Part shown: positions 25,529-36,945 of the stretch, in pieces
Layout of the letters: the number at the start of each line of letters is the position of its first letter
How positions within the stretch are numbered: the first letter of the stretch is position 1
Origin: an uncultured Pseudomonadota bacterium
Lineage (GTDB): Bacteria > Desulfobacterota > Binatia > Binatales > Binataceae
Direction: 5' to 3'
NCBI GenBank assembly: GCA_937889395.1
Contig: CALAOW010000070.1
Span: forward strand, 1 to 43,491
DNA: 43,491 nucleotides
Position numbers and translations under genes: made by a program
The notes under the pieces: model-generated
Databases searched by the model: none
What the model was told of the DNA's origin: nothing
The model's input: the letters and a program-made list of their open reading frames with translations, nothing else

Positions 25529-26833
25529 ATGACCAATGCGCCCGCATCCTCGACGCGCGATCGGCTCACGCTGGAGGGCCGGCTCAATCAGGAATGTTTT
25601 TGTATCGATGTCGATCCGGCGCGTGTCTGGCGCGCCGTGGAGCAAACAACGGCGGGCATCGTCCCCGGCGAGGTATTGGCCCGGGACCGCGCTCATCTCT
25701 TCTCCAACGCGCCGGTCTTCCTCTCGCAGGCGGATCTGATCGCGATGGGCGAGGTCGCGCAGGCCGTCGAAGCGGTCGGCGAGCTCAAAACGTTCCAGGC
25801 CGAAGTACTGGCGTGGGCGCCAGAAATTGCAAGGATCGATTTTGGGCCGCGTGGCGCGTTCATGGGCTACGACTTTCACCTGACGCCGAACGGACCCAAG
25901 CTTATCGAGGTGAACACCAACGCTGGCGGAGCCTTCCTGAACGCGATCCTTGCGCAGGCCTGGGTCGCTTGCTGCCCCGAGGTGCAAGCGCTCGCGCCGC
26001 AGCCGCCGGCCGGGTTCGAAGACGCGGTCTGGAACATGTTCGAAGCGGAGTGGCGCCTCCAACGCCGCGCCGGTCGCCCGCGCGTAATCGCAATCGTTGA
26101 CGATGCGCCCCAACACCAGTTCCTCTACCCGGAGTTCCTGCTGGCGCAGGCCTTCTTCCAGCGCCACGGCGTGGAAGCGGTGATCGCTGATCCGAACAGT
26201 CTGCGGTATTGGCGGGGCCGTCTCATGCTCGGCGAGCTGCCGATCGATCTGGTTTACAATCGGCTGGTGGACTTTGGGTTCGAAAGCCCGGCGGTCGGAT
26301 CGATCCGGGAGGCCTATCTGGCCGACGCGGTGGTCGTGACGCCTAACCCGCGCAACCACGCGCTCCTGGCGGACAAGCGCAATCTGGCCCTGTTGTCCGA
26401 TCCTGCGTGGCTCGAAGCGCTCGGCGTCGAACAAGGACTACGCGACACGCTCGCGCGCCTTCCGCGCGCCAGGCTTGTCACGCCCGACAACGCCGCGGCG
26501 CTCTGGGCCGAGCGCAAATCGCTCTTCTTCAAGCCGGCGGCGGGACATGCCGGCAAGGCCGTCTACCGCGGAGACAAGCTCACACGAACCGTCTGGGCGG
26601 ACATCTTGCAGGGTGATTACGTCGCCCAAGCCTTCGCCGCCCCGAGCGAGCGGCGGGTTCAAGTCGAGGGCGATCCGCAGGTCCGCAAGATGGATGTGCG
26701 ACTTTACACCTATGCAGCCTCCACGATCCTGGTGGCGGCGCGCCTGTACCAGGGCCAAACCACCAACTTCCGCACGCCAGGCGGGGGATTCGCCCCGGTC
26801 ATCATCCTTGGCGGACCTGAGGTCAGCGCCTAA
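25529..26833 (+). CDS. ATP-grasp-like protein of unknown function
   Basis: 434 aa; GPRGAFMGYDFHLTPNGPKLIEVNTNAGGAFLN (metal/ATP-binding-like LIEVNTNAGG), AERKSLFFKPAAGHAGKAVYRGDK, VEGDPQVRKMDVRLYTYAAS. No specific substrate is inferable from sequence alone. Confidence 0.7.
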   Translation: MTNAPASSTRDRLTLEGRLNQECFCIDVDPARVWRAVEQTTAGIVPGEVLARDRAHLFSNAPVFLSQADLIAMGEVAQAVEAVGELKTFQAEVLAWAPEIARIDFGPRGAFMGYDFHLTPNGPKLIEVNTNAGGAFLNAILAQAWVACCPEVQALAPQPPAGFEDAVWNMFEAEWRLQRRAGRPRVIAIVDDAPQHQFLYPEFLLAQAFFQRHGVEAVIADPNSLRYWRGRLMLGELPIDLVYNRLVDFGFESPAVGSIREAYLADAVVVTPNPRNHALLADKRNLALLSDPAWLEALGVEQGLRDTLARLPRARLVTPDNAAALWAERKSLFFKPAAGHAGKAVYRGDKLTRTVWADILQGDYVAQAFAAPSERRVQVEGDPQVRKMDVRLYTYAASTILVAARLYQGQTTNFRTPGGGFAPVIILGGPEVSA

Positions 26834-27585
26834 CGGGATTTGATGTCGTCTTCGAGCATCAGATTGCGCAAGTCCTGGCGCTGGAAGATCGCCGCCACCG
26901 AGCGCGTCAGCGCGACCGACAATACCTGCCCCGGCTCGTCGTAGATGCCCGCTTCGTCCTCGGAACCGAGACCGAACGAGCCGACCGGCGGGTCGTAGTA
27001 GGTTTCGTCAGCGCTCCCGGTCCAGAACGGGACGCTGAACGGCGGCTTGTAGATCGAGACGTCGAGAGCCAAATCGGCTGTAGTCCGCCAGACAGGGCCG
27101 TACTGGCCGTTGGCGCCGCGGTACTTTTTTACCCAGCATCGCCGAATCTTGCTCTCGAGCACATACTCGGCGGTGTTCTTGACTCCCGGTTTGTAGGCGA
27201 CATCAGTGGACGACGACGCGCTCAAACCCGCCTCATCGGCCGCGCGCCCGATCGCTTGCTGCAGGATCGGGCCGAGCGGGGGGCTGTACAGGCGCTGCGT
27301 AATGTTGCCGGATTGATCGGTGATGACTCCTATCGCCGGATTGCCATTGAGCGGCGCGCTGTCGCCGGTCCCGTCGCGCGCGTCGGCCGACATCAGGATC
27401 AGGATGGTCTTTCTGGGATAACTGTTTTGGTATCCCTTGACCTGGTACGGGTAGTACTCGAGCGTCTGGACCGAGGTCGTAGCGGGCGCACCGCCGCCGA
27501 CGGTCGCACATCCCGAGAGCATCGAGGTGAAGGTCGAAACGATCGTGACGAGAAGCGCGATTCGGCAGGTGTGGATGCTCGCCAC
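26830..27585 (-). CDS. Predicted lipoprotein, terminal gene of the kinase/FHA locus
   Basis: Signal/lipobox region ALLVTIVSTFTSMLSGC; then YYPYQVKGYQNSYPRKTILILMSADARDGTG... Likely GTG start near 27585, just after the FHA gene stop. Confidence 0.7.
   Translation of the reverse strand: MASIHTCRIALLVTIVSTFTSMLSGCATVGGGAPATTSVQTLEYYPYQVKGYQNSYPRKTILILMSADARDGTGDSAPLNGNPAIGVITDQSGNITQRLYSPPLGPILQQAIGRAADEAGLSASSSTDVAYKPGVKNTAEYVLESKIRRCWVKKYRGANGQYGPVWRTTADLALDVSIYKPPFSVPFWTGSADETYYDPPVGSFGLGSEDEAGIYDEPGQVLSVALTRSVAAIFQRQDLRNLMLEDDIKSR
26832..26874. repeat. 43-bp direct repeat, copy 2
   Basis: aacgggatttgatgtcgtcttcgagcAtcagattgcgcaagtc; encodes the C-terminus (DLRNLMLEDDIKSR*) of the lipoprotein on the minus strand. 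Confidence 0.97.
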
Positions 27586-27601
27586 GATCAGGCTTCGCCT
27601 C

Positions 27602-28471
27602 TTATCGATTCGCCGCCTGGGCCCGATCGCGGAAGAGAAACAGCGTGCCACCCACCTCGAGACGATCGCCGCTCTTGAGCGCATAGCGGCCCGCCACCGA
27701 CTGTCGATTGACGAATATCTGCCCGCCGGTCGGATTGATGATGAAATTCTTGCCCTCGCGCCGGATGATCGCATGATTGCCGAGCACCGTCTGATCGCCG
27801 AACAGTCCGATGTCGCTTTCCTCGGCGCGGCCGATAATCGTCACGCCCTTGAGCAGGGGATATTCGCGGCCCTCGCGCGCGTTGCGGCTCTGGCTGCGCA
27901 CGACCATCAGCCAGCCGCGCTTGAGCAACTCTCCGACCAGTCCGATGAAGAATCCGATCAGCGCGCCGAGGATGATGATCGCGATCGCTCGTCCGAACGC
28001 TTGCGGAAACGTGCTCGTCAGGCTCTGGTAAAAGAATCCGCCGAGCGCGCCGCCGAGCAAGCCGCCTATCGCGCCATTGCGCCGCCGCGCCGCCGATCCC
28101 GACGCCGATCCAACGCCGAGTCCGACCGCGATTCCGAGCACGCTCCATCCCAGAATTCGGCCGTTGAGGCCGCCCAGAATGTCGAACGCAAATTCGCCGA
28201 CGATCAATCCCAGCGCTCCGCCCGCCGCGCCGATAGCTCCACCGACCACGAATCTGCGCGCCGCCTGACGCAACTGGCCTACGCTGAGCGTTTCGATCGA
28301 GGCGAGAAACGCGCTGATCAGTGCGCCGATCAACGCACCGAACAGGATATCGCGGCCATAAACCCAGCGGATGCCGAGAATTGGCTCCGAGAGCCCCCAC
28401 GCGGCGAAGCCGCCAAGCGCGCCGGCGGCCGCATAGAAGAGAAGTTTTTCGCGGGAAACGTTACTCGCCAT
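27602..28471 (-). CDS. Multi-TM glycine-rich membrane protein with C-terminal FHA-like domain
   Basis: Several Gly/Ala-rich TM segments, then YPLLKGVTIIGRAEESDIGLFGDQTVLGNHAIIRREGKNFIINPTGGQIFVNRQSV (FHA-like). Confidence 0.8.
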   Translation of the reverse strand: MASNVSREKLLFYAAAGALGGFAAWGLSEPILGIRWVYGRDILFGALIGALISAFLASIETLSVGQLRQAARRFVVGGAIGAAGGALGLIVGEFAFDILGGLNGRILGWSVLGIAVGLGVGSASGSAARRRNGAIGGLLGGALGGFFYQSLTSTFPQAFGRAIAIIILGALIGFFIGLVGELLKRGWLMVVRSQSRNAREGREYPLLKGVTIIGRAEESDIGLFGDQTVLGNHAIIRREGKNFIINPTGGQIFVNRQSVAGRYALKSGDRLEVGGTLFLFRDRAQAANR

Positions 28472-28631: not shown

Positions 28632-31013
28632 TCAATTCGCCTGGGCGGTCCAGGTGCCGCGCTCTCCCGACGGCGTCGATTCGAAAGTGCCGCTGATCTG
28701 ATCGCTGCGGCGCGCGCCTTCGAAGTAATACGTCTCGGTGCCGTATGGGACCTGGAACTGCAGATGGTTGCCGCGGACGAATCCTTCGATCGGCGTCATT
28801 CCATAGCCTGACTGATGGATCACGAGCTCGCCGTGCAGGAAGCCGTTGGGCTGCGGACGCAGTCTAAGCTCCATCCCGGGATTGCCGCCGCTGCGAAGAC
28901 CGCTGATAGTGCCGGTGGCGACCGTCGGCCCGAGCATGCTGCCCGACGGCATCGAGCTGCCACCGATCGAGCTGCCGATCGCGCCGCTGCCGCCTGGATA
29001 GGTCGCGTATGGTCCGCCGGCGTCGGCGAGCACTTCGAATCTCTTCGCATCGAAAAATTGGCCGTTCAAATAAAAATTAACCGTGTAGGTGCCCGGCAGA
29101 AACGCGCCGCCGTGCGAGTTGCCGACGCGTCCGCTGAACGTCACCGTCTTCATACTGGGCGAGACGGGCTGATAATCGTTGACCGCGCCCAGCGTGCGAC
29201 CGTCCGGGCCGATATACGCCGCATCGACGCGGTACTGGCCGGGCTCGAGCTTGTAGAGCCGGTTCTCGAAGCTGACCTCCCAGCCGACGAACAACACCTT
29301 CGATACCGCGAAAGAGCTGGTCGCTCGCGAGAGCGCGGTCCCGGTCTTGGTCGTGTTGAGAAAGCTGATGCTGCGAAGCTGCAAGGGCTTGGCGCGGCGC
29401 TCATCGATCATCGCGAGCTTGCGCGCTTCTTCGTCGCGCTTGCGCTGCTCCGCCTTTGCCGCCGCCGCAGCCGCCGCCTCGCTCGCCGCCGCCGCGTTCC
29501 TTGCGCTCACGTCCTGGTTAACGATGAAGCCTTCCTGCGCGAGCATCTTGTCGTCCGAGTAGAGCGCCACCTTGTACGTGCCGGCGGGCTTGTCGGTCAT
29601 CGTCGGCATCAACGCCACGCCGCTGAAGTCGGCGGTCTTCTGCGCCGGCCCGACAAAAATATTCGTGTTGCTGGACGCGATCTGAAGTCCGTTGGGATCG
29701 TAAAAGCGCGCCTCGACCTTTTCGTCACGCCCTTCCAGTCCCGCGAGCAGGTTCTTGAAGGTTGCGGTCCACTTCAGGTAGCGCGCGTTGGTCAGATCGG
29801 TATCGTTGAACTTCGCCTGCGGCGGCGCCAGCGCAGTGCCCTCGCGCGTCGAGAGCGCCAGCGTCATCTGCGAGAATTCGAGCGGATGCTCGCGGGCCTT
29901 GGCCAGCAGCTCCTCATGCTTCCACGGCAGTCCGTCGAACAGCGGCTTGAGTCCGAGCCGCAGCTGTAGTTCCGGGCTTGAATATATGTACGTCCCGCCG
30001 AACGCCGCTCCCGCCAGCACCATCAGGAAAATCGCAAGACTGATCGAACGGCTCAGCCGGCTGCGCGGCTTGCGATAAACAACCGGCTCGTCCTCGAACT
30101 CGAGTTGCTCCTGGTACTGCGACAGCCCGCCGGTTCCGCCCGTCGAGCTCACACTCCCGCCCTCGTGCGCGAGGCCGCGCCCGTAGAGCATCATGTCGCG
30201 GAATTCCTGGACGCGCCCGGGCCGCCCGTTTACTTCGTATGCAAGCGCCGCGTCGACGGCGCCCGCCAGGTTGCTCGACACGGCCGGGCGCAGCTCGTGA
30301 ATCGGCGGGAAACTGAAGGGCGGAAACTTTTCAGGATCGCGGCCGGTCAGCACGTAATGCAACGTCGCGCCCAGCGAGTAGATGTCGCTGCGCGGATCGA
30401 CCAGGCCCTGGTACTGCTCCGGCGGTGCGAAGCCAAGCGTGCCGATCATCGTGCCCTTGCGCGCAGCCTTGAACAGCCGCGCGATTCCAAAGTCCACCAA
30501 CACGACCCGCCCGTTCGGATTGAGCATCACGTTGGACGGCTTCATGTCGCGGTAGACTATCGGCGGCTCCAGCCCGTGCAGATACGCGAGCACGTCGCAC
30601 AACTGGCGCGCGATATCGATCACCAGCCCCTCGGGCAGCGGCTCGCCGCGTGCGGCGAGTTCCTCCTCGAGGTTGCGTCCCTCGACGTACTCCATCACCA
30701 GGTAATGGCGGTTGGCGAGTTCGAAGCGGTCGGTGATCGCGGGAATCGCCTGATGCTTCAGTTGCGCGAGCGTGTCGGCCTCGCGCGCGAAATATTCGTT
30801 GGCCTCGATCCGCTGCGCCGGATCGATAAAGTGATCGACCATCTCTTTGATCGCGCACGGGCGATTGGCCAGGCGCTGGTCGCGCGCCAGATAGACCATC
30901 CCCATCCCGCCGCCGCCGAGCAGCCGCTCGATTGCGTAGCGGCCCTGCAGCACGGTGCCGGGCTCGAGCGGTCCGGTATTCGGCTGCGATGAATCTTTTG
31001 GCGAGGTGGACAT
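28632..31013 (-). CDS. Membrane-anchored Ser/Thr protein kinase with extracytoplasmic sensor-like region
   Basis: LLGGGGMGMVYLARD, AIKEMV, IVYRDMKPSNVML, LVDFGIARLF, GTLGFAPPEQY; single TM (SISLAIFLMVLAGAAFGGTYIY); about 450-aa C-terminal region with two similar Ig-like segments. Confidence 0.92.
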   Translation of the reverse strand: MSTSPKDSSQPNTGPLEPGTVLQGRYAIERLLGGGGMGMVYLARDQRLANRPCAIKEMVDHFIDPAQRIEANEYFAREADTLAQLKHQAIPAITDRFELANRHYLVMEYVEGRNLEEELAARGEPLPEGLVIDIARQLCDVLAYLHGLEPPIVYRDMKPSNVMLNPNGRVVLVDFGIARLFKAARKGTMIGTLGFAPPEQYQGLVDPRSDIYSLGATLHYVLTGRDPEKFPPFSFPPIHELRPAVSSNLAGAVDAALAYEVNGRPGRVQEFRDMMLYGRGLAHEGGSVSSTGGTGGLSQYQEQLEFEDEPVVYRKPRSRLSRSISLAIFLMVLAGAAFGGTYIYSSPELQLRLGLKPLFDGLPWKHEELLAKAREHPLEFSQMTLALSTREGTALAPPQAKFNDTDLTNARYLKWTATFKNLLAGLEGRDEKVEARFYDPNGLQIASSNTNIFVGPAQKTADFSGVALMPTMTDKPAGTYKVALYSDDKMLAQEGFIVNQDVSARNAAAASEAAAAAAAKAEQRKRDEEARKLAMIDERRAKPLQLRSISFLNTTKTGTALSRATSSFAVSKVLFVGWEVSFENRLYKLEPGQYRVDAAYIGPDGRTLGAVNDYQPVSPSMKTVTFSGRVGNSHGGAFLPGTYTVNFYLNGQFFDAKRFEVLADAGGPYATYPGGSGAIGSSIGGSSMPSGSMLGPTVATGTISGLRSGGNPGMELRLRPQPNGFLHGELVIHQSGYGMTPIEGFVRGNHLQFQVPYGTETYYFEGARRSDQISGTFESTPSGERGTWTAQAN

Positions 31014-31040: not shown

Positions 31041-33095
31041 CTAGCTTGCATAGACTACGATCATGGAAATGTTGTCGGTACCGCCGCCGGCGTTGGCCGC
31101 GACGATCAATTCGCGCGCCGCGTCGAAGGGATCGGGGTTACGCTCCAGAATGTCGTGGATCTGACGGTCATCGACGTGCGCCGTCAACCCGTCGCTGCAG
31201 AGCATCAGCTTGTCCCCGCGTTTGAGCTTGAGCGAGACCGCCTCCGCCCCCGCCGGTCCGCTCTGGCGCGCACCGAGCGAGCGCGTGATCACATTTTTGT
31301 GCTCGTGCGTGTGCGCTTCCTCGGCAGTTATCTGCCCGATTTCGACCAGCCGCTGCACCAGTGAGTGGTCCTTTGTGACCTGGCGAAGCGTCGCGCCTTC
31401 CATCAGATATCCGCGGCTGTCTCCGACCCAGGCCACGGCCGCATCCGGTGGCGCGACCAGCGCGCATACGCCCGTGGAACCCATTCCGCGAGACTCCGGA
31501 TGGCTCGCCACGTATTCGATAATCCTGGAATTTGCTTCTTCGAGCGCGGCTGTCAGCAGTTCCGCGCCGTTGGTAACATCTCCACGCGCGCCCTCGAGCC
31601 GCGTTTCAATGTAACTCCGGATCGTTTGTACGGCAATTGCAGAAGCGACTTCGCCCGCCTCCGCGCCGCCCATCCCGTCGGCAACGACGTACAAATGGCT
31701 CTGCGCCGGATCGATCATCGACTCGCGCGTGTACTCGACCGCCAGCACCGAGTCTTCGTTATGCTCGCGCACGCGGCCTACGTCGGTCATCGCGGCCGCG
31801 CGCAGCCGGATCGCGCCGCCCAGCGCGATCAGCTCGGCCTTGAACTCGTCGATGGTCGGCCAGCGGTCGGCGGGGCTGAAAGCGATCGCACGGCGGATCG
31901 CATTCTCCAGCCGCGGTGTAACGACATGCGGCGGATAGAACTGAACCGGGCCCGCCTCTTCGCGCCAGCTCTCGCTCGGAATCCTTGCGCCCGTGAGGCA
32001 CGTGTAGAGGATCGCGCCGGCGGAAAAAATATCCGCGCGCTTGTCCACCTTTTTGCCGCGATAAATCTCCGGCGCCGTGTAGCCGTCGTTGAAAATCGGC
32101 TCGCCCTGAAGCTCATTGTCGTTGCTGACGTAGTCCAGGCCCGTGAGCTTGAGCCGGCCGTCGGGGGCAACGGAAACCGATTCGGGGCAGATGTCGTTCA
32201 GCCGCAGCGCCCGGCGATGCGCAAACGAAATCGCCTGGCAGATCTGAACGGCTGCCGCGATCGCTTCCGTCTCGGTCATTTTCCCGGATCCGCGACGAAG
32301 TCCCTCGAGTTCCTCGTCGGCGTAAACCAGGTACACGCGCCCGTTTTCAGCGAATCCTCCGGTCGCGCGCTGAAAGGCGGGATGGTTGATCGTCTGTGAC
32401 AGGGCGAGCACGCGCCCGAAGACTTCACCGAGATCTTCGCCGCCCGGCGCCGCCGCATCCTCGTGCGCCCCGTCGTCGGTCTCGGGATTGGCCTGAGTTT
32501 CGGCCACGACCGCTGCTTCCACCGCTTCGCTGGATTCATCCGGAGATGCGTTCTCCGCAACCTCGGCCATCACGGCAGGATTAGCTTCAGCCTCGACCGC
32601 CGACTGGACGCCTTCCCCCGATGCGTTCGCGCTCGCCGACCCGCCCACCTGCGAACTCGAGGCGTGCAGCTGCGGCGCCGCCGCGGTCCCGTTGGTCTGC
32701 GCAACCGCCGGCCTGAGTTCCGCGGTCTTGGCACTCGGGCTGTTGGGATCCTCGGGACGCGGCGCGGGCGGCGCGGGCGCCGCCGGATGCGGCGCTTCAT
32801 CGACCATTTCTGCCAATTCTGCCGACGGTTGCGGGCCGAGGCGCTCACGCAATGCGATCGATTCCGTTTTGCCGTCTCGGATGCGGTTTGCGCGATAGTG
32901 ATTTTCGATCGACGTCTGACCCGTCAGCGCAACTATCTCGATCCCGCCCTTCAAAGACGTTCCCGCCGTCAGCGGCGTCGGCCGCGTCGGCGACTGCGAT
33001 GCGGATGCGGCCGCCTTGGACAGCCCCTGGCCGCATCGATTGCAGAACTTGGCGTCGTCCGATGCCTCTTGGCCGCATTCAGGACAGGTGATCAT
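31041..33095 (-). CDS. Zinc-ribbon / degenerate kinase (pseudokinase) / PP2C phosphatase fusion
   Basis: MITCPECGQEASDDAKFCNRCGQG; kinase-like segment LNDICPESVSVAPDGRLKLTGLDYV...GYTAPEIYRGKKVDKRADIFSAGAILYTCLTG; PP2C motifs TDVGRVREHNEDS, VADGMGGAEAGEVAS, VAWVGDSRGYLM, LCSDGLTAHV, GGTDNISMIVV. Confidence 0.9.
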   Translation of the reverse strand: MITCPECGQEASDDAKFCNRCGQGLSKAAASASQSPTRPTPLTAGTSLKGGIEIVALTGQTSIENHYRANRIRDGKTESIALRERLGPQPSAELAEMVDEAPHPAAPAPPAPRPEDPNSPSAKTAELRPAVAQTNGTAAAPQLHASSSQVGGSASANASGEGVQSAVEAEANPAVMAEVAENASPDESSEAVEAAVVAETQANPETDDGAHEDAAAPGGEDLGEVFGRVLALSQTINHPAFQRATGGFAENGRVYLVYADEELEGLRRGSGKMTETEAIAAAVQICQAISFAHRRALRLNDICPESVSVAPDGRLKLTGLDYVSNDNELQGEPIFNDGYTAPEIYRGKKVDKRADIFSAGAILYTCLTGARIPSESWREEAGPVQFYPPHVVTPRLENAIRRAIAFSPADRWPTIDEFKAELIALGGAIRLRAAAMTDVGRVREHNEDSVLAVEYTRESMIDPAQSHLYVVADGMGGAEAGEVASAIAVQTIRSYIETRLEGARGDVTNGAELLTAALEEANSRIIEYVASHPESRGMGSTGVCALVAPPDAAVAWVGDSRGYLMEGATLRQVTKDHSLVQRLVEIGQITAEEAHTHEHKNVITRSLGARQSGPAGAEAVSLKLKRGDKLMLCSDGLTAHVDDRQIHDILERNPDPFDAARELIVAANAGGGTDNISMIVVYAS

Positions 33096-34825
33096 GAGCC
33101 TCTCCGAAACTGCAATATAGCACCACCAAGCACCACCTGGTCGCGATCTTTTAACTTGTAGAGCTGGTCACGCCCCAACTTGCCGCGCCCCGCGATGTAG
33201 GTGCCGTTAAGGCTGCCGAGATCGCGGATGAAGTAGTCTGCGCCGCGCAGGACTATCTCGGCATGGCGCCGCGAGACGCGATCCCTGCCGTGCGCGAGCT
33301 TCTTCAGATCGATGTCGAGCTTGTCGGCGGCGTCCTGCGACCGCCCAATCAAAGTGCGCATCCCGAAAATGCCGAATTCGATTTCATCGCCGCGCGAGAC
33401 GAGCTTCGCCGGCGCGGCGGATACATCGGCGCCGTTGGCATTATGCTCTCCGAACAATCCGCCGGAACCCGGGCCGGTCGAAATTGGCGGCGAATAATTG
33501 CGCGACGAAGACGCGCGCGACCCGGTCCGCGATTTCGTGTCAGCCGGCTCCGATTCGCCCGTCGCGCCTGCCCGCGACGGGTACGACGACGCAACCGCAG
33601 GCGGGTTCAATTCCCTGGTCTTGGCCGTCGATGACGGGCTCGGCGCAGCACTCGGCGCAATCGCGGACCGTCGCGCCTTGAGCCGCCGCTCGATCAGGCT
33701 GCGCGCCTTGCCGGTGAGTTCGATCGCTTTTTTGATCTGTGGCGCGACGATCTTTGCCGCGGCGCCAGTGGCAATCCCGCCGCTCCTGATTTTTTCCGCG
33801 ACCGGCTCGTTCAGCACGATCGTCGGCATCGTGGACGCCGGCGCACCGGAACGTGGTCCGGAAGATCGCCACGGGGTCGCGCGCGACGCCGGCGCATTCG
33901 AATTCGAATTGTTCAGCACGACGGTTGATAGCTGGGAACTCCGGCTCAGCGCGCCCGCGCCGGTGGCGACCGCCAGTCCCCCGCTCGCATCCAATCGCCC
34001 CGACCTGCTCTCGGGTGGCGGCTCGGGCAGCGCACGCCGCATCTCCTTTGCCGACGCGTGCCGCTTGGTCAGGCCCTGATCGAGCGCACGCATCACGGCG
34101 TCCGCGGTCCTGACCGAAACTTCCGGCGCGAGTGAACGCAGGGGAGGAAAGCTGAACGGCGGCTCGAGCTGCGGATCGCGGCCGGTCAACAGATGATGCA
34201 TCGTGGCGGCCAGCGAGTAGAGGTCCGAGCGCGGCTCGACCTTGCCCATGTACTGCTCGGGCGGCGCGTAGCCTATCGAGCCGATTTGCGTGCCGCGTCC
34301 GCCGGGTGGCAGGAAGCGCGCGATTCCGAAATCGATCAGCATCGCGCGGCCGTCCTTGTCGATCATGATATTGCCCGGCTTCAGGTCGCGATAAATTATC
34401 GGCGGTTTCTGCGAGTGCAGAAACTCGAGCACGTCGAGCATCTGCCGCGCCCACCGCAGCACCTTGTCCTCGGCGACTTTGCCCTTGGGGCCCAGCTTGT
34501 CGAGCACGTGCTGCAAATCGCCGCCGGCGACAAATTCCATCACCAGGTAATGGCGCGAATTCTCGGCGAAGTGATCGATCAGCGTGGGAATCCCCGGATG
34601 CGACAGGCGCGCGAGCACGTTGGCCTCGCGCGTGAAGTCCTCGATCGCTTTTTTCTCCCGGATTCCGTCGCCGACGACCATCTCCTTGACCGCGACCGGC
34701 CGGTTCGCCAGGCGCGTGTCGTTGGACAGGTACACGCGTCCCATCCCGCCGACGCCGAGCACCTTCTTGACGCGATAACGACCGTCGAGAAGATGGCCCT
34801 CGGGGAGTGCCTCACCCGCATTCAT
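33092..34825 (-). CDS. Ser/Thr protein kinase with C-terminal FHA domain
   Basis: VLGVGGMGRVYLSNDTRLANRPVAVKEMV, IIYRDLKPGNIMI, LIDFGIARFL, GSIGYAPPEQY; C-terminal RTLIGRSQDAADKLDIDLKKLAHGRDRVSRRHAEIVLRGADYFIRDLGSLNGTYI. Confidence 0.93.
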   Translation of the reverse strand: MNAGEALPEGHLLDGRYRVKKVLGVGGMGRVYLSNDTRLANRPVAVKEMVVGDGIREKKAIEDFTREANVLARLSHPGIPTLIDHFAENSRHYLVMEFVAGGDLQHVLDKLGPKGKVAEDKVLRWARQMLDVLEFLHSQKPPIIYRDLKPGNIMIDKDGRAMLIDFGIARFLPPGGRGTQIGSIGYAPPEQYMGKVEPRSDLYSLAATMHHLLTGRDPQLEPPFSFPPLRSLAPEVSVRTADAVMRALDQGLTKRHASAKEMRRALPEPPPESRSGRLDASGGLAVATGAGALSRSSQLSTVVLNNSNSNAPASRATPWRSSGPRSGAPASTMPTIVLNEPVAEKIRSGGIATGAAAKIVAPQIKKAIELTGKARSLIERRLKARRSAIAPSAAPSPSSTAKTRELNPPAVASSYPSRAGATGESEPADTKSRTGSRASSSRNYSPPISTGPGSGGLFGEHNANGADVSAAPAKLVSRGDEIEFGIFGMRTLIGRSQDAADKLDIDLKKLAHGRDRVSRRHAEIVLRGADYFIRDLGSLNGTYIAGRGKLGRDQLYKLKDRDQVVLGGAILQFRRGS

Positions 34826-34897: not shown

Positions 34898-35578
34898 TCA
34901 AGATATCGTTTCAACCACCAGCTTGAGGAACGTTTTCCCGATGATCACCTCGTCGCCAGACTTGATCTCGGCGGGACTGCCCGGTGCGAGACGCGGCTGA
35001 CGATTGACGTAGGTGCCGTTGAGACTGCCGATGTCCTCGATCGTGATCTTGCCAGCGTCGATTCGAATCAACGCGTGCTTGCGCGAGATCTTGGCTTCGG
35101 GATCGTCGGCGTCGAGATCCACTTCCGGAAACGATCCCGTCTCGGGATCCCATCTGCCGACCAGGTTGTTGCCCTCTTCGAGCGGGAATTCCTGGCCCTT
35201 GCGTCCACCGCGAACGACAGACAGCTTCGCCTTGAACGGCGCGCCTGCGGCAGCCGCGGTTGGAGCTGACGGCGCGCTCTCGGGCGCGGCCTCCGGCTTG
35301 ATCTCACCGGTGGGCGCTTCCGACTTGGGCGCTTCGGCAGTCGGCGTTTCACCGTCAGGCTTCGCATCAGCCGCCGCCGCAGGGATCTCCGCCGGAACAC
35401 TGCTGACAGAAGTTGGTGCGATACCCGCGGAGTCGCCGCCAGCTTTAACTTCGCCGGCTGGTTTGGATTCTGCGGCAGGAGCCGGCGCGGCGGCGCCGAC
35501 GGCGAGCTTCGCGCCGCATCCGTCGCAGTAATCGAGTCCGTCCATGTTTTCGTAGCCGCATTCGCCGCATTTGATCAT
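34898..35578 (-). CDS. Zinc-ribbon plus FHA domain protein
   Basis: MIKCGECGYENMDGLDYCDGCGAKL, Ala/Pro/Glu linker, NLVGRWDPETGSFPEVDLDADDPEAKISRKHALIRIDAGKITIEDIGSLNGTYVN. Confidence 0.92.
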   Translation of the reverse strand: MIKCGECGYENMDGLDYCDGCGAKLAVGAAAPAPAAESKPAGEVKAGGDSAGIAPTSVSSVPAEIPAAAADAKPDGETPTAEAPKSEAPTGEIKPEAAPESAPSAPTAAAAGAPFKAKLSVVRGGRKGQEFPLEEGNNLVGRWDPETGSFPEVDLDADDPEAKISRKHALIRIDAGKITIEDIGSLNGTYVNRQPRLAPGSPAEIKSGDEVIIGKTFLKLVVETIS

Positions 35579-35649: not shown

Positions 35650-36945
35650 CTAATCGGACTTCTGGAAATCCTTCAACGCTTCCGGATCGAGCATCTGGGT
35701 CTTGCGCACCACCGCCTGCGCTTGCAGGAGGGTGGTCTTGGCCGCCTTGGTCTGCAGCGTCTGGGTCTTCTTGATCTGATCGAGCAGGCCCGCGAGCGCC
35801 TGCGTCGCCTTGACGTTGCCCAACCGCTGCGTGCCTTGCAGCGCGTTGCCGAGCAGGCGAGTCGCGCGATCGACGTTGCCCGCCTTGAGTTCCTCTTCAG
35901 CCTTGGCCTGCAGCTTGGCAATCGAGACCTGGTCCACCAGGTTCATCACGCGGCCGTTGCGCTTGCTGGTCAGCGTGCGATCGAGCGTGTAATCGACGGT
36001 GAGATCGCAGGCGACGGTGGATTCGGCGCCGCCCGGCACTTCGTAATGGAACGTACTCTGCAAAATTCTGACCTGCCCCGGCTTGCGCGGCGGCAGCACC
36101 AGCGTCAGCAGCACGGAACCGGGCACGCCGGCCTGCAAGTCGCCTATCTCGTAGCCGATTTTGCGATCCTCGCCGACCAGCGGCGTGCCGAGCATGTAAA
36201 TCTCCGGCGATGCGCGAAATGCCTCGCGCACCTGCACGCCCTGCGACAGCGTCACCTCGATTCGCCCGTTGCGCAGGCTCACCGAGCGCAGTCCCTGCAG
36301 CTCGTCTTCGAAAATATTGGGAATCTCGGCCGGGTCGCCGATGAAATGATATTTGCCGTTGGAGTCCTGCGACACGCGCTGCAGGAGTTTCTCGTTGAAC
36401 TCGACACCCACGCCCATCGTCGAGAACGAAATCTGCTCGCGGTTTTTCTCGACCAGATCGATGCACGCGGTCTCTTCGTAGGTCTGGCCGTCGGTGAGCA
36501 CCAGCACGCGATTGAGGCGATCGGGGCTGAGATTTTTCTTGACCTCGTCGATCGCCGCGCGCATCCCGAGCGCCATCTGCGTGCCGCCGCCGATTTCGAG
36601 CAGGTCGATATCGTCGATCGCGCGTTTGATTGCGCTCTTGTCCCGCGCCGCCTCGGGCGTGATTATCACCTTCGCCTTGTCGGCGAACGCGACTATCGAG
36701 ACCTTGTCGTCGGCGCTCAGGTTGTCGGCCAGGAACTTGACTGCCTCGACGACGAATTCCAGCCGCCGCTCGTCGTACATCGAGCCCGAGCGATCTATTA
36801 CCACGCCAAGGTTGAGCGGTACCCGCCCGCCGCCGCCCGCGCCGCGGGCGACAGCCTCGAGCAGCACGTAGAGAACGAAGTTTTCCGCGCTGGACAGAAC
36901 ATGTTCGCTGCTCGCCAGCGCCTCGAAGCTAAGCGGATCGGCCAT
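35650..36945 (-). CDS. von Willebrand factor A domain protein
   Basis: MIDAS motif LGVVIDRSGSM, VLVLTDGQT; C-terminal helical Thr-rich tail KKTQTLQTKAAKTTLLQAQAVVRKTQMLDPEALKDFQ. Confidence 0.92.
   Translation of the reverse strand: MADPLSFEALASSEHVLSSAENFVLYVLLEAVARGAGGGGRVPLNLGVVIDRSGSMYDERRLEFVVEAVKFLADNLSADDKVSIVAFADKAKVIITPEAARDKSAIKRAIDDIDLLEIGGGTQMALGMRAAIDEVKKNLSPDRLNRVLVLTDGQTYEETACIDLVEKNREQISFSTMGVGVEFNEKLLQRVSQDSNGKYHFIGDPAEIPNIFEDELQGLRSVSLRNGRIEVTLSQGVQVREAFRASPEIYMLGTPLVGEDRKIGYEIGDLQAGVPGSVLLTLVLPPRKPGQVRILQSTFHYEVPGGAESTVACDLTVDYTLDRTLTSKRNGRVMNLVDQVSIAKLQAKAEEELKAGNVDRATRLLGNALQGTQRLGNVKATQALAGLLDQIKKTQTLQTKAAKTTLLQAQAVVRKTQMLDPEALKDFQKSD

Follow-up and report, generated by a model that had tools for sequence, protein, structure and literature searches.

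The window, a 43,491-nucleotide stretch of DNA from an uncultured soil member of the Binataceae (Binatota), carries a gene on its minus strand whose product combines a zinc ribbon, a predicted pseudokinase and a PP2C phosphatase. The open reading frame occupies exactly positions 31041–33095 and encodes 684 amino acids, and every motif quoted in the initial annotation of this locus is found in its translation. The fusion proposed there is borne out by Pfam and NCBIfam searches and by an alignment of 30 Binataceae orthologues. All three domains exceed their curated Pfam cut-offs: Zn_Ribbon_1 (PF13240) at residues 4–23 (27.9 bits against 25), Pkinase at residues 232–374 (50.5 bits against 31.7, E 2.5e-13) and PP2C_2 at residues 461–645 (57.6 bits against 24). 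The zinc ribbon takes up residues 1–25 (33021–33095), with cysteines at positions 4, 7, 18 and 21 that are all invariant in 33 aligned sequences. The kinase-like domain spans approximately residues 44–428 and is divided into an N-lobe segment, strands β1–β3 (residues 44–90; 32826–32966), a disordered, alanine-rich insert (residues 93–218; 32442–32819), and helix αC with the C-lobe (residues 221–428; 31812–32435); the PP2C domain follows at residues 432–683 (31047–31802). The closest homologue in a named genome is from Candidatus Binatus soli UBA7539, with 96% identity over the domain, and the close relatives belong to the same genus.

The fusion gene lies in an operon of Ser/Thr phosphorylation genes, all on the minus strand, which in Binataceae run in the order VWA, zinc ribbon-FHA, STPK-FHA, pseudokinase-PP2C, STPK and membrane FHA. 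The domain search identified the first as a VWA-domain protein (35650–36945). In the second (34898–35578) a GarA/OdhI-like FHA domain scores above its cut-off, and zinc ribbon models fall below theirs with CxxC pairs visible. STPK-FHA (33092–34825, 577 amino acids) joins an FHA domain to an active-looking kinase with VAVK, RDLKPGN and DFG present, and the end of its reading frame shares 4 bases with the beginning of the fusion gene. Beyond the fusion gene come another active-looking Ser/Thr kinase, STPK793 (28632–31013), with a single hydrophobic segment near residue 323, and a membrane protein with a C-terminal degenerate FHA domain (27602–28471, domain search). Pfam recognizes three FHA proteins within the operon; judged from the translations, the FHA domains of STPK-FHA and the zinc ribbon-FHA protein retain GR, SR-H and NG. 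In the membrane FHA protein the SR and NG residues with which FHA domains bind phosphopeptides are gone (LGNHA, GGQI), and it may be a pseudo-FHA. After the cassette comes a lipoprotein-like open reading frame with an SGCA box (26830–27774), which is conserved in Binataceae, at about 39–48% identity in distant members. The order with VWA, FHA and STPK genes is conserved in nine Binataceae contexts and in five loci of a second Binatia family (f5), where the cassette is that of Binataceae minus STPK-FHA. A role in anti-phage defence was considered and set aside, the PADLOC matches reflecting generic kinase and PP2C domains and giving no evidence of defence.

Its losses mark the kinase domain as a pseudokinase: the β3 lysine, the αC glutamate, the lysine of HRDxK, the following asparagine, the DFG aspartate and the glycine-rich loop are all missing. 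The β3 lysine is replaced by R83 in 30/30 aligned Binataceae orthologues, as the initial annotation had proposed from the VAIK motif, and ENxY stands in place of the glycine-rich loop in an alignment with the operon STPKs. The αC glutamate position, which was assigned from that alignment only, is valine or isoleucine in the same orthologues (n = 30). In LNDICPES (residues 299–306; 32178–32201), the degenerate HRDxKPxN loop, N300 and D301 are present in every one of the 30, as is C303 in place of the lysine; S306 replaces the asparagine in 28/30, the position overall being serine or alanine. The previously noted conversion of DFG to GLD (residues 319–321; 32133–32141) holds equally: G319 is found in 27/30 with serine in the remainder, L320 in 30/30 and D/E321 in 30/30, giving the variants GLD, SLD and GLE. 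Both sites rest on concordant evidence, since an independent alignment of a 37-homologue profile with PknB (E 9.7e-28) matched HRDVKPAN with vNDICPES and DFG with GLD, in agreement with the alignment to the two operon kinases. These comparisons uphold the change of lysine to cysteine and of asparagine to serine; the HRD aspartate, however, which the initial annotation had missed, is recovered as D301 and was not lost. It is the sole survivor of the residue set of an active Ser/Thr kinase (β3 Lys, αC Glu, HRD Asp, Asn and DFG Asp). Nor does the N-lobe contain a well-conserved lysine elsewhere, the best position, 49, being lysine in 57% of orthologues.

The fold is nevertheless that of a protein kinase. 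An AlphaFold model of the kinase domain has pLDDT of at least 90 for 197 of 398 residues, with most of the low values falling within the insert, and its first three strands fall at residues 52–60, 65–73 and 76–86. The domain was modelled alone for Foldseek, the top 50 matches of the whole protein being PP2C throughout; its best match is PknB (2fum; E 9.7e-13, TM-score by target 0.75). The APE motif, correctly cited earlier as a surviving fold landmark, keeps its glutamate (E343) in 30/30 Binataceae orthologues, and so does the F-helix its aspartate (D355). Identity among these orthologues is 0.68 for the C-lobe and 0.70 for the PP2C domain; because the two are about equally conserved, the dead domain must be under selection. 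The same catalytic states recur in 30 genomes, which rules out sequencing error or frameshift as the source of the degeneracy, and the presence of orthologues across Binataceae and f5 excludes an oddity of one genome. On this comparison, the degeneracy is an old and conserved state and no quirk of a single genome.

The phosphatase domain, by contrast with the kinase domain, looks intact. It exceeds the NCBIfam cut-off for the Stp1/IreP PP2C model NF033484 (240.9 bits against 230), and does not reach that of the NF011149/PRK14559 serine/threonine phosphatase model (141.7 bits against 374). Its best fold match is PstP (1txo; Foldseek E 1.9e-21). Five aspartates, D448, D473, D559, D635 and D674, match the metal ligands D18, D34, D119, D193 and D231 of tPphA (numbers counted from the alignment) and are invariant in all 33 aligned sequences, in keeping with the intact metal-binding motifs already described; R443, taken as the phosphate-site arginine, is likewise invariant among the aligned sequences. 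With its ligands intact, the domain should be catalytically competent. Another PP2C gene of the same genome is of ordinary type, has no pseudokinase and is situated beside an STPK gene on contig C84 (6066–8011).

The insert that separates β3 from αC accords with the Ala-rich stretch of about 120 residues that was originally seen to split the N-lobe. It comprises 126 residues, 33 of them alanine, and is placed within the N-lobe by the AlphaFold model, where pLDDT is below 50 nearly throughout between β3 (76–86) and αC (223–235). Sequence identity across it is low, with one exception, the motif AKTAEL at residues 122–127 (32715–32732), which is its sole conserved element: mean pairwise identity among the 30 orthologues is 0.873 in this core but 0.147 over the remainder of the insert, and the next best non-overlapping window of six residues reaches 0.216. 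The form AKTx[ED]L is exact in 29 of the 30 Binataceae fusion proteins, the exception being APTQEL (locus L030), and T124 and L127 are each present in all 30. The same motif, as AKTREL (33608–33625, minus strand), occurs in the linker of STPK-FHA. Among the 23 loci where our search found that linker, 22 have AKT and one ART (ARTQDL); the remaining seven of the 30 gave no FHA match, some probably through the locus ending or the linker lying outside coverage. Back-translated, the motif has five DNA matches in the genome, compared with three for a reversed control. Two of the five are the fusion insert and the STPK-FHA linker, and the others are AKTAEL in a UvrC-like protein, AKTREL in an open frame of 89 codons, and AKTDDF. 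The five f5 loci examined contain neither the insert nor the STPK-FHA gene, and a search of Deinococcus and cyanobacterial cassettes for a shared linker motif gave chance-like matches only. Derivation of the motif by duplication of αC was suggested by ARTAELKHPAF in that helix of one f5 member (L033) and was judged a coincidence, other f5 members being different.

Of the genomes listed, 39 of the 41 Binataceae (f1) and 11 of the 16 in f5 carry the fusion. Two Binataceae gave no match, and in one of them (G016) there is a gene fragment; a search of the class gave no match in other families at E 1e-30. Outside the class, zinc ribbon-pseudokinase-PP2C proteins are present in Acidobacteriota (in Chloracidobacterium, Blastocatellia and three further genomes), where an FHA or kinase gene adjoins the fusion in some cases. 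In f5 and Acidobacteriota the kinase-like domain recurs without the insert, and the β3 residue is arginine, alanine or glutamate. The HRD loop becomes VD, VE or IE in f5, with glutamate mostly replacing the aspartate, and YNG or HNG in Acidobacteriota, so catalysis is unlikely to be a conserved function of the kinase domain across these relatives. Profile comparisons relate the N-terminal regions of cyanobacterial (E 3.2e-7) and Deinococcus (E 1.2e-13) proteins to the Binatia pseudokinase, although the Pfam kinase signal there is weak in Tolypothrix and nil in Deinococcus, and the HRD-site loop is unrelated in cyanobacteria. In three cyanobacterial members (L179, L188 and L189) the kinase C-lobe is also preceded by variable sequence, roughly at the site of the Binataceae insert, but we found no motif that these proteins have in common with the kinase encoded next door. 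Across Binatia, Acidobacteriota, cyanobacteria and Deinococcus the domain order of the fusion is kept.

Cassettes resembling that of Binatia are carried on plasmids in both of the more distant groups, with VWA, FHA, PP2C and STPK genes in cyanobacteria, and VWA, STPK, FHA and PP2C genes with a further kinase-containing protein in Deinococcus. There, the gene after the pseudokinase-PP2C is annotated as a beta-helix repeat protein but starts with an STPK domain (L181, 5932–8988; L187, 7835–10852), a second kinase concealed by its annotation. The f5 cassettes are followed by a protein that appears to combine a VWA domain, a hydrophobic segment and an FHA domain and was not seen in the window (L033, 13519–15138; L034, 3934–5583; L035, 13482–15131). 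In a PP2C tree, Binatia and Acidobacteriota group together, and cyanobacteria and Deinococcus fall elsewhere; constraining all pseudokinase-PP2C proteins to a single clade gave p-AU 0.039, in a tree with long branches. A single origin of them all is thus unsupported, and the two positions imply that the design arose either once, with loss in between, or twice. Several other candidates were discarded: matches in Nitrospira, Deltaproteobacteria and Chloroflexus translate as ordinary kinases with at most PP2C genes nearby and no fusion, and a long extension N-terminal to a PP2C (L046) was artefactual, the reading frame having been followed past the start of the gene. The Deinococcus radiodurans homologue is DRA0334, an assignment made by matching gene order and annotation and not by accession. 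DRA0331 (VWA), DRA0333 (zinc finger-FHA) and DRA0334 (PP2C) have values of 3.7 to 4.3 in a table of genes changed in an oxyR mutant (PMC2225504).

Phosphatases of the Stp1/IreP type consist of a PP2C domain alone or with a membrane tail. The fusion resembles these proteins (PrpC, PstP) in its NCBIfam score, intact ligands and fold match to PstP, yet they have neither pseudokinase nor zinc ribbon. The TerY-P triad unites a TerY-type vWA protein with a PP2C and an STPK. Actinobacterial triads link zinc ribbon-kinase, PP2C and vWA genes (PMC7159879) and so share the kinase-PP2C-vWA linkage with Binatota, but their zinc ribbon kinase is active, the PP2C is separate and no pseudokinase has been described. 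Kinase and PP2C are joined in one protein in the Pseudomonas fusions reported in 2005, which differ in domain order, the PP2C being N-terminal, and in kinase state, the kinase being treated as functional; that report lists D. radiodurans with a similar organisation and set aside sequences without the catalytic aspartate (PMC1262709). Among known pseudokinases, ActPs2 combines a Lys-to-Arg replacement with a disordered 32-residue insert between β3 and αC (PMC12599244), as the fusion does with its own R83 and insert. However, ActPs2 has HRD Asp replaced by Asn, a DFG deletion, a 250-residue activation-loop insert and a membrane segment (PMC12599244), whereas the fusion keeps the aspartate and has GLD, no long activation loop and no hydrophobic segment (maximum KD19 1.26). 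The membrane-associated DYD pseudokinases, which have DYD in place of DFG and keep the first aspartate of their motif, similarly share Lys-to-Arg and absence of the αC glutamate (PMC12599244); the fusion differs in having GLD, SLD or GLE and no membrane segment. MviN (ActPs3) of Mycobacterium tuberculosis, in which a phosphorylated segment of a pseudokinase recruits the FHA protein FhaA (PMC12599244), is a precedent for the recruitment proposed below, though it is a membrane protein without a phosphatase and its phosphosite is C-terminal, while the candidate site of the fusion lies in the β3–αC insert. Our search for prior descriptions covered the open-access literature, in which a 2025 review of bacterial pseudokinase families mentions PP2C nowhere (PMC12599244).

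We suggest that the fusion protein is the phosphatase arm of the cassette formed with the VWA, zinc ribbon-FHA, STPK-FHA, membrane STPK and membrane FHA proteins. Its kinase domain would no longer phosphorylate, and normal ATP binding has probably gone. Instead, the pseudokinase may act through protein binding or allostery, positioning the PP2C on the active kinases of the cassette or on a shared substrate, or gating it there. Threonine with a strict leucine at +3 is what pT+3-class FHA domains recognise, and AKTx[ED]L, once phosphorylated on its threonine, could serve an FHA domain as a pT-x-x-L ligand, joining phosphatase and kinase in one complex which the phosphatase could itself dissolve. 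The architecture, lost residues, conservation, operon and shared motif behind this proposal were all read from sequence. A docking or allosteric role agrees with the active-looking kinases and FHA proteins that are conserved as genomic neighbours, and the motif shared with STPK-FHA makes it more specific; taken whole, with docking or gating by the dead kinase and AKTxEL as FHA ligand, we regard the explanation as reasonably probable. The survival of the HRD aspartate in Binataceae counts against it. Since AKTxEL is confined to Binataceae, the FHA-ligand step cannot represent the ancestral role.

AKTx[ED]L lies within disordered sequence in a kinase and also in the enzyme that probably opposes it, and with an acidic residue at +2 and a hydrophobic one at +3 it might be a docking site for a kinase, the phosphatase or the VWA protein, or an activating phosphosite, with the pseudokinase still tethering the phosphatase; set against the strict Thr and Leu +3 (30/30), as read by the pT+3 class, and three FHA proteins in the operon, this seems rather unlikely. 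A nucleotide- or energy-sensing kinase domain that gates the PP2C, with Arg83 paired to the acid in third place of GLD so as to hold ATP without phosphotransfer, is favoured by R83 and D/E321, each found in 30/30 Binataceae orthologues alongside V/I at the αC position, and it can draw on the Arg-Asp pairing and predicted ATP binding of DYD pseudokinases and on ATP binding by other Lys-to-Arg pseudokinases (PMC12599244). We think it improbable, however, given the loss of the glycine loop, DFG Asp and Asn, an N-lobe with no well-conserved lysine that could have migrated, and an Arg-acid pairing that is not kept in f5 and Acidobacteriota.

Invariant N300, D301 and C303 in Binataceae, and the other activities found in the pseudokinases SelO and SidJ (PMC12599244), could be taken to indicate atypical catalysis, such as AMPylation, glutamylation or unusual phosphotransfer, through D301 and its neighbours; but the divergent loops of f5, Acidobacteriota and cyanobacteria leave no family-wide active site, which makes this very improbable. 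Hardest of all to credit is a kinase domain that is a passive remnant beside a free-standing housekeeping phosphatase. PP2C domains do act alone in most bacteria, but here the C-lobe is conserved as much as the PP2C domain and is kept in several phyla, and the genome already has an ordinary PP2C beside an STPK (contig C84).

If the docking and gating account is right, then in Binatota and at least three other phyla a dead kinase probably steers a phosphatase. More tentatively, these proteins may form a hitherto undescribed cross-phylum class of phosphatases, each controlled by a pseudokinase of its own and central to a VWA-FHA-STPK cassette, to which Binataceae have added an AKTxEL phosphothreonine switch common to kinase and phosphatase, such that one FHA code couples opposing enzymes. 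Little work has been done on bacterial pseudokinases, and none of the families covered by the 2025 review is joined to a phosphatase; the fusion supplies a conserved pseudokinase family with a clear partner enzyme and active-looking sister kinases adjoining. The shared AKTx[ED]L motif offers a single-residue experiment, and the homologue DRA0334 in a genetically tractable bacterium makes the role of the dead kinase directly testable.
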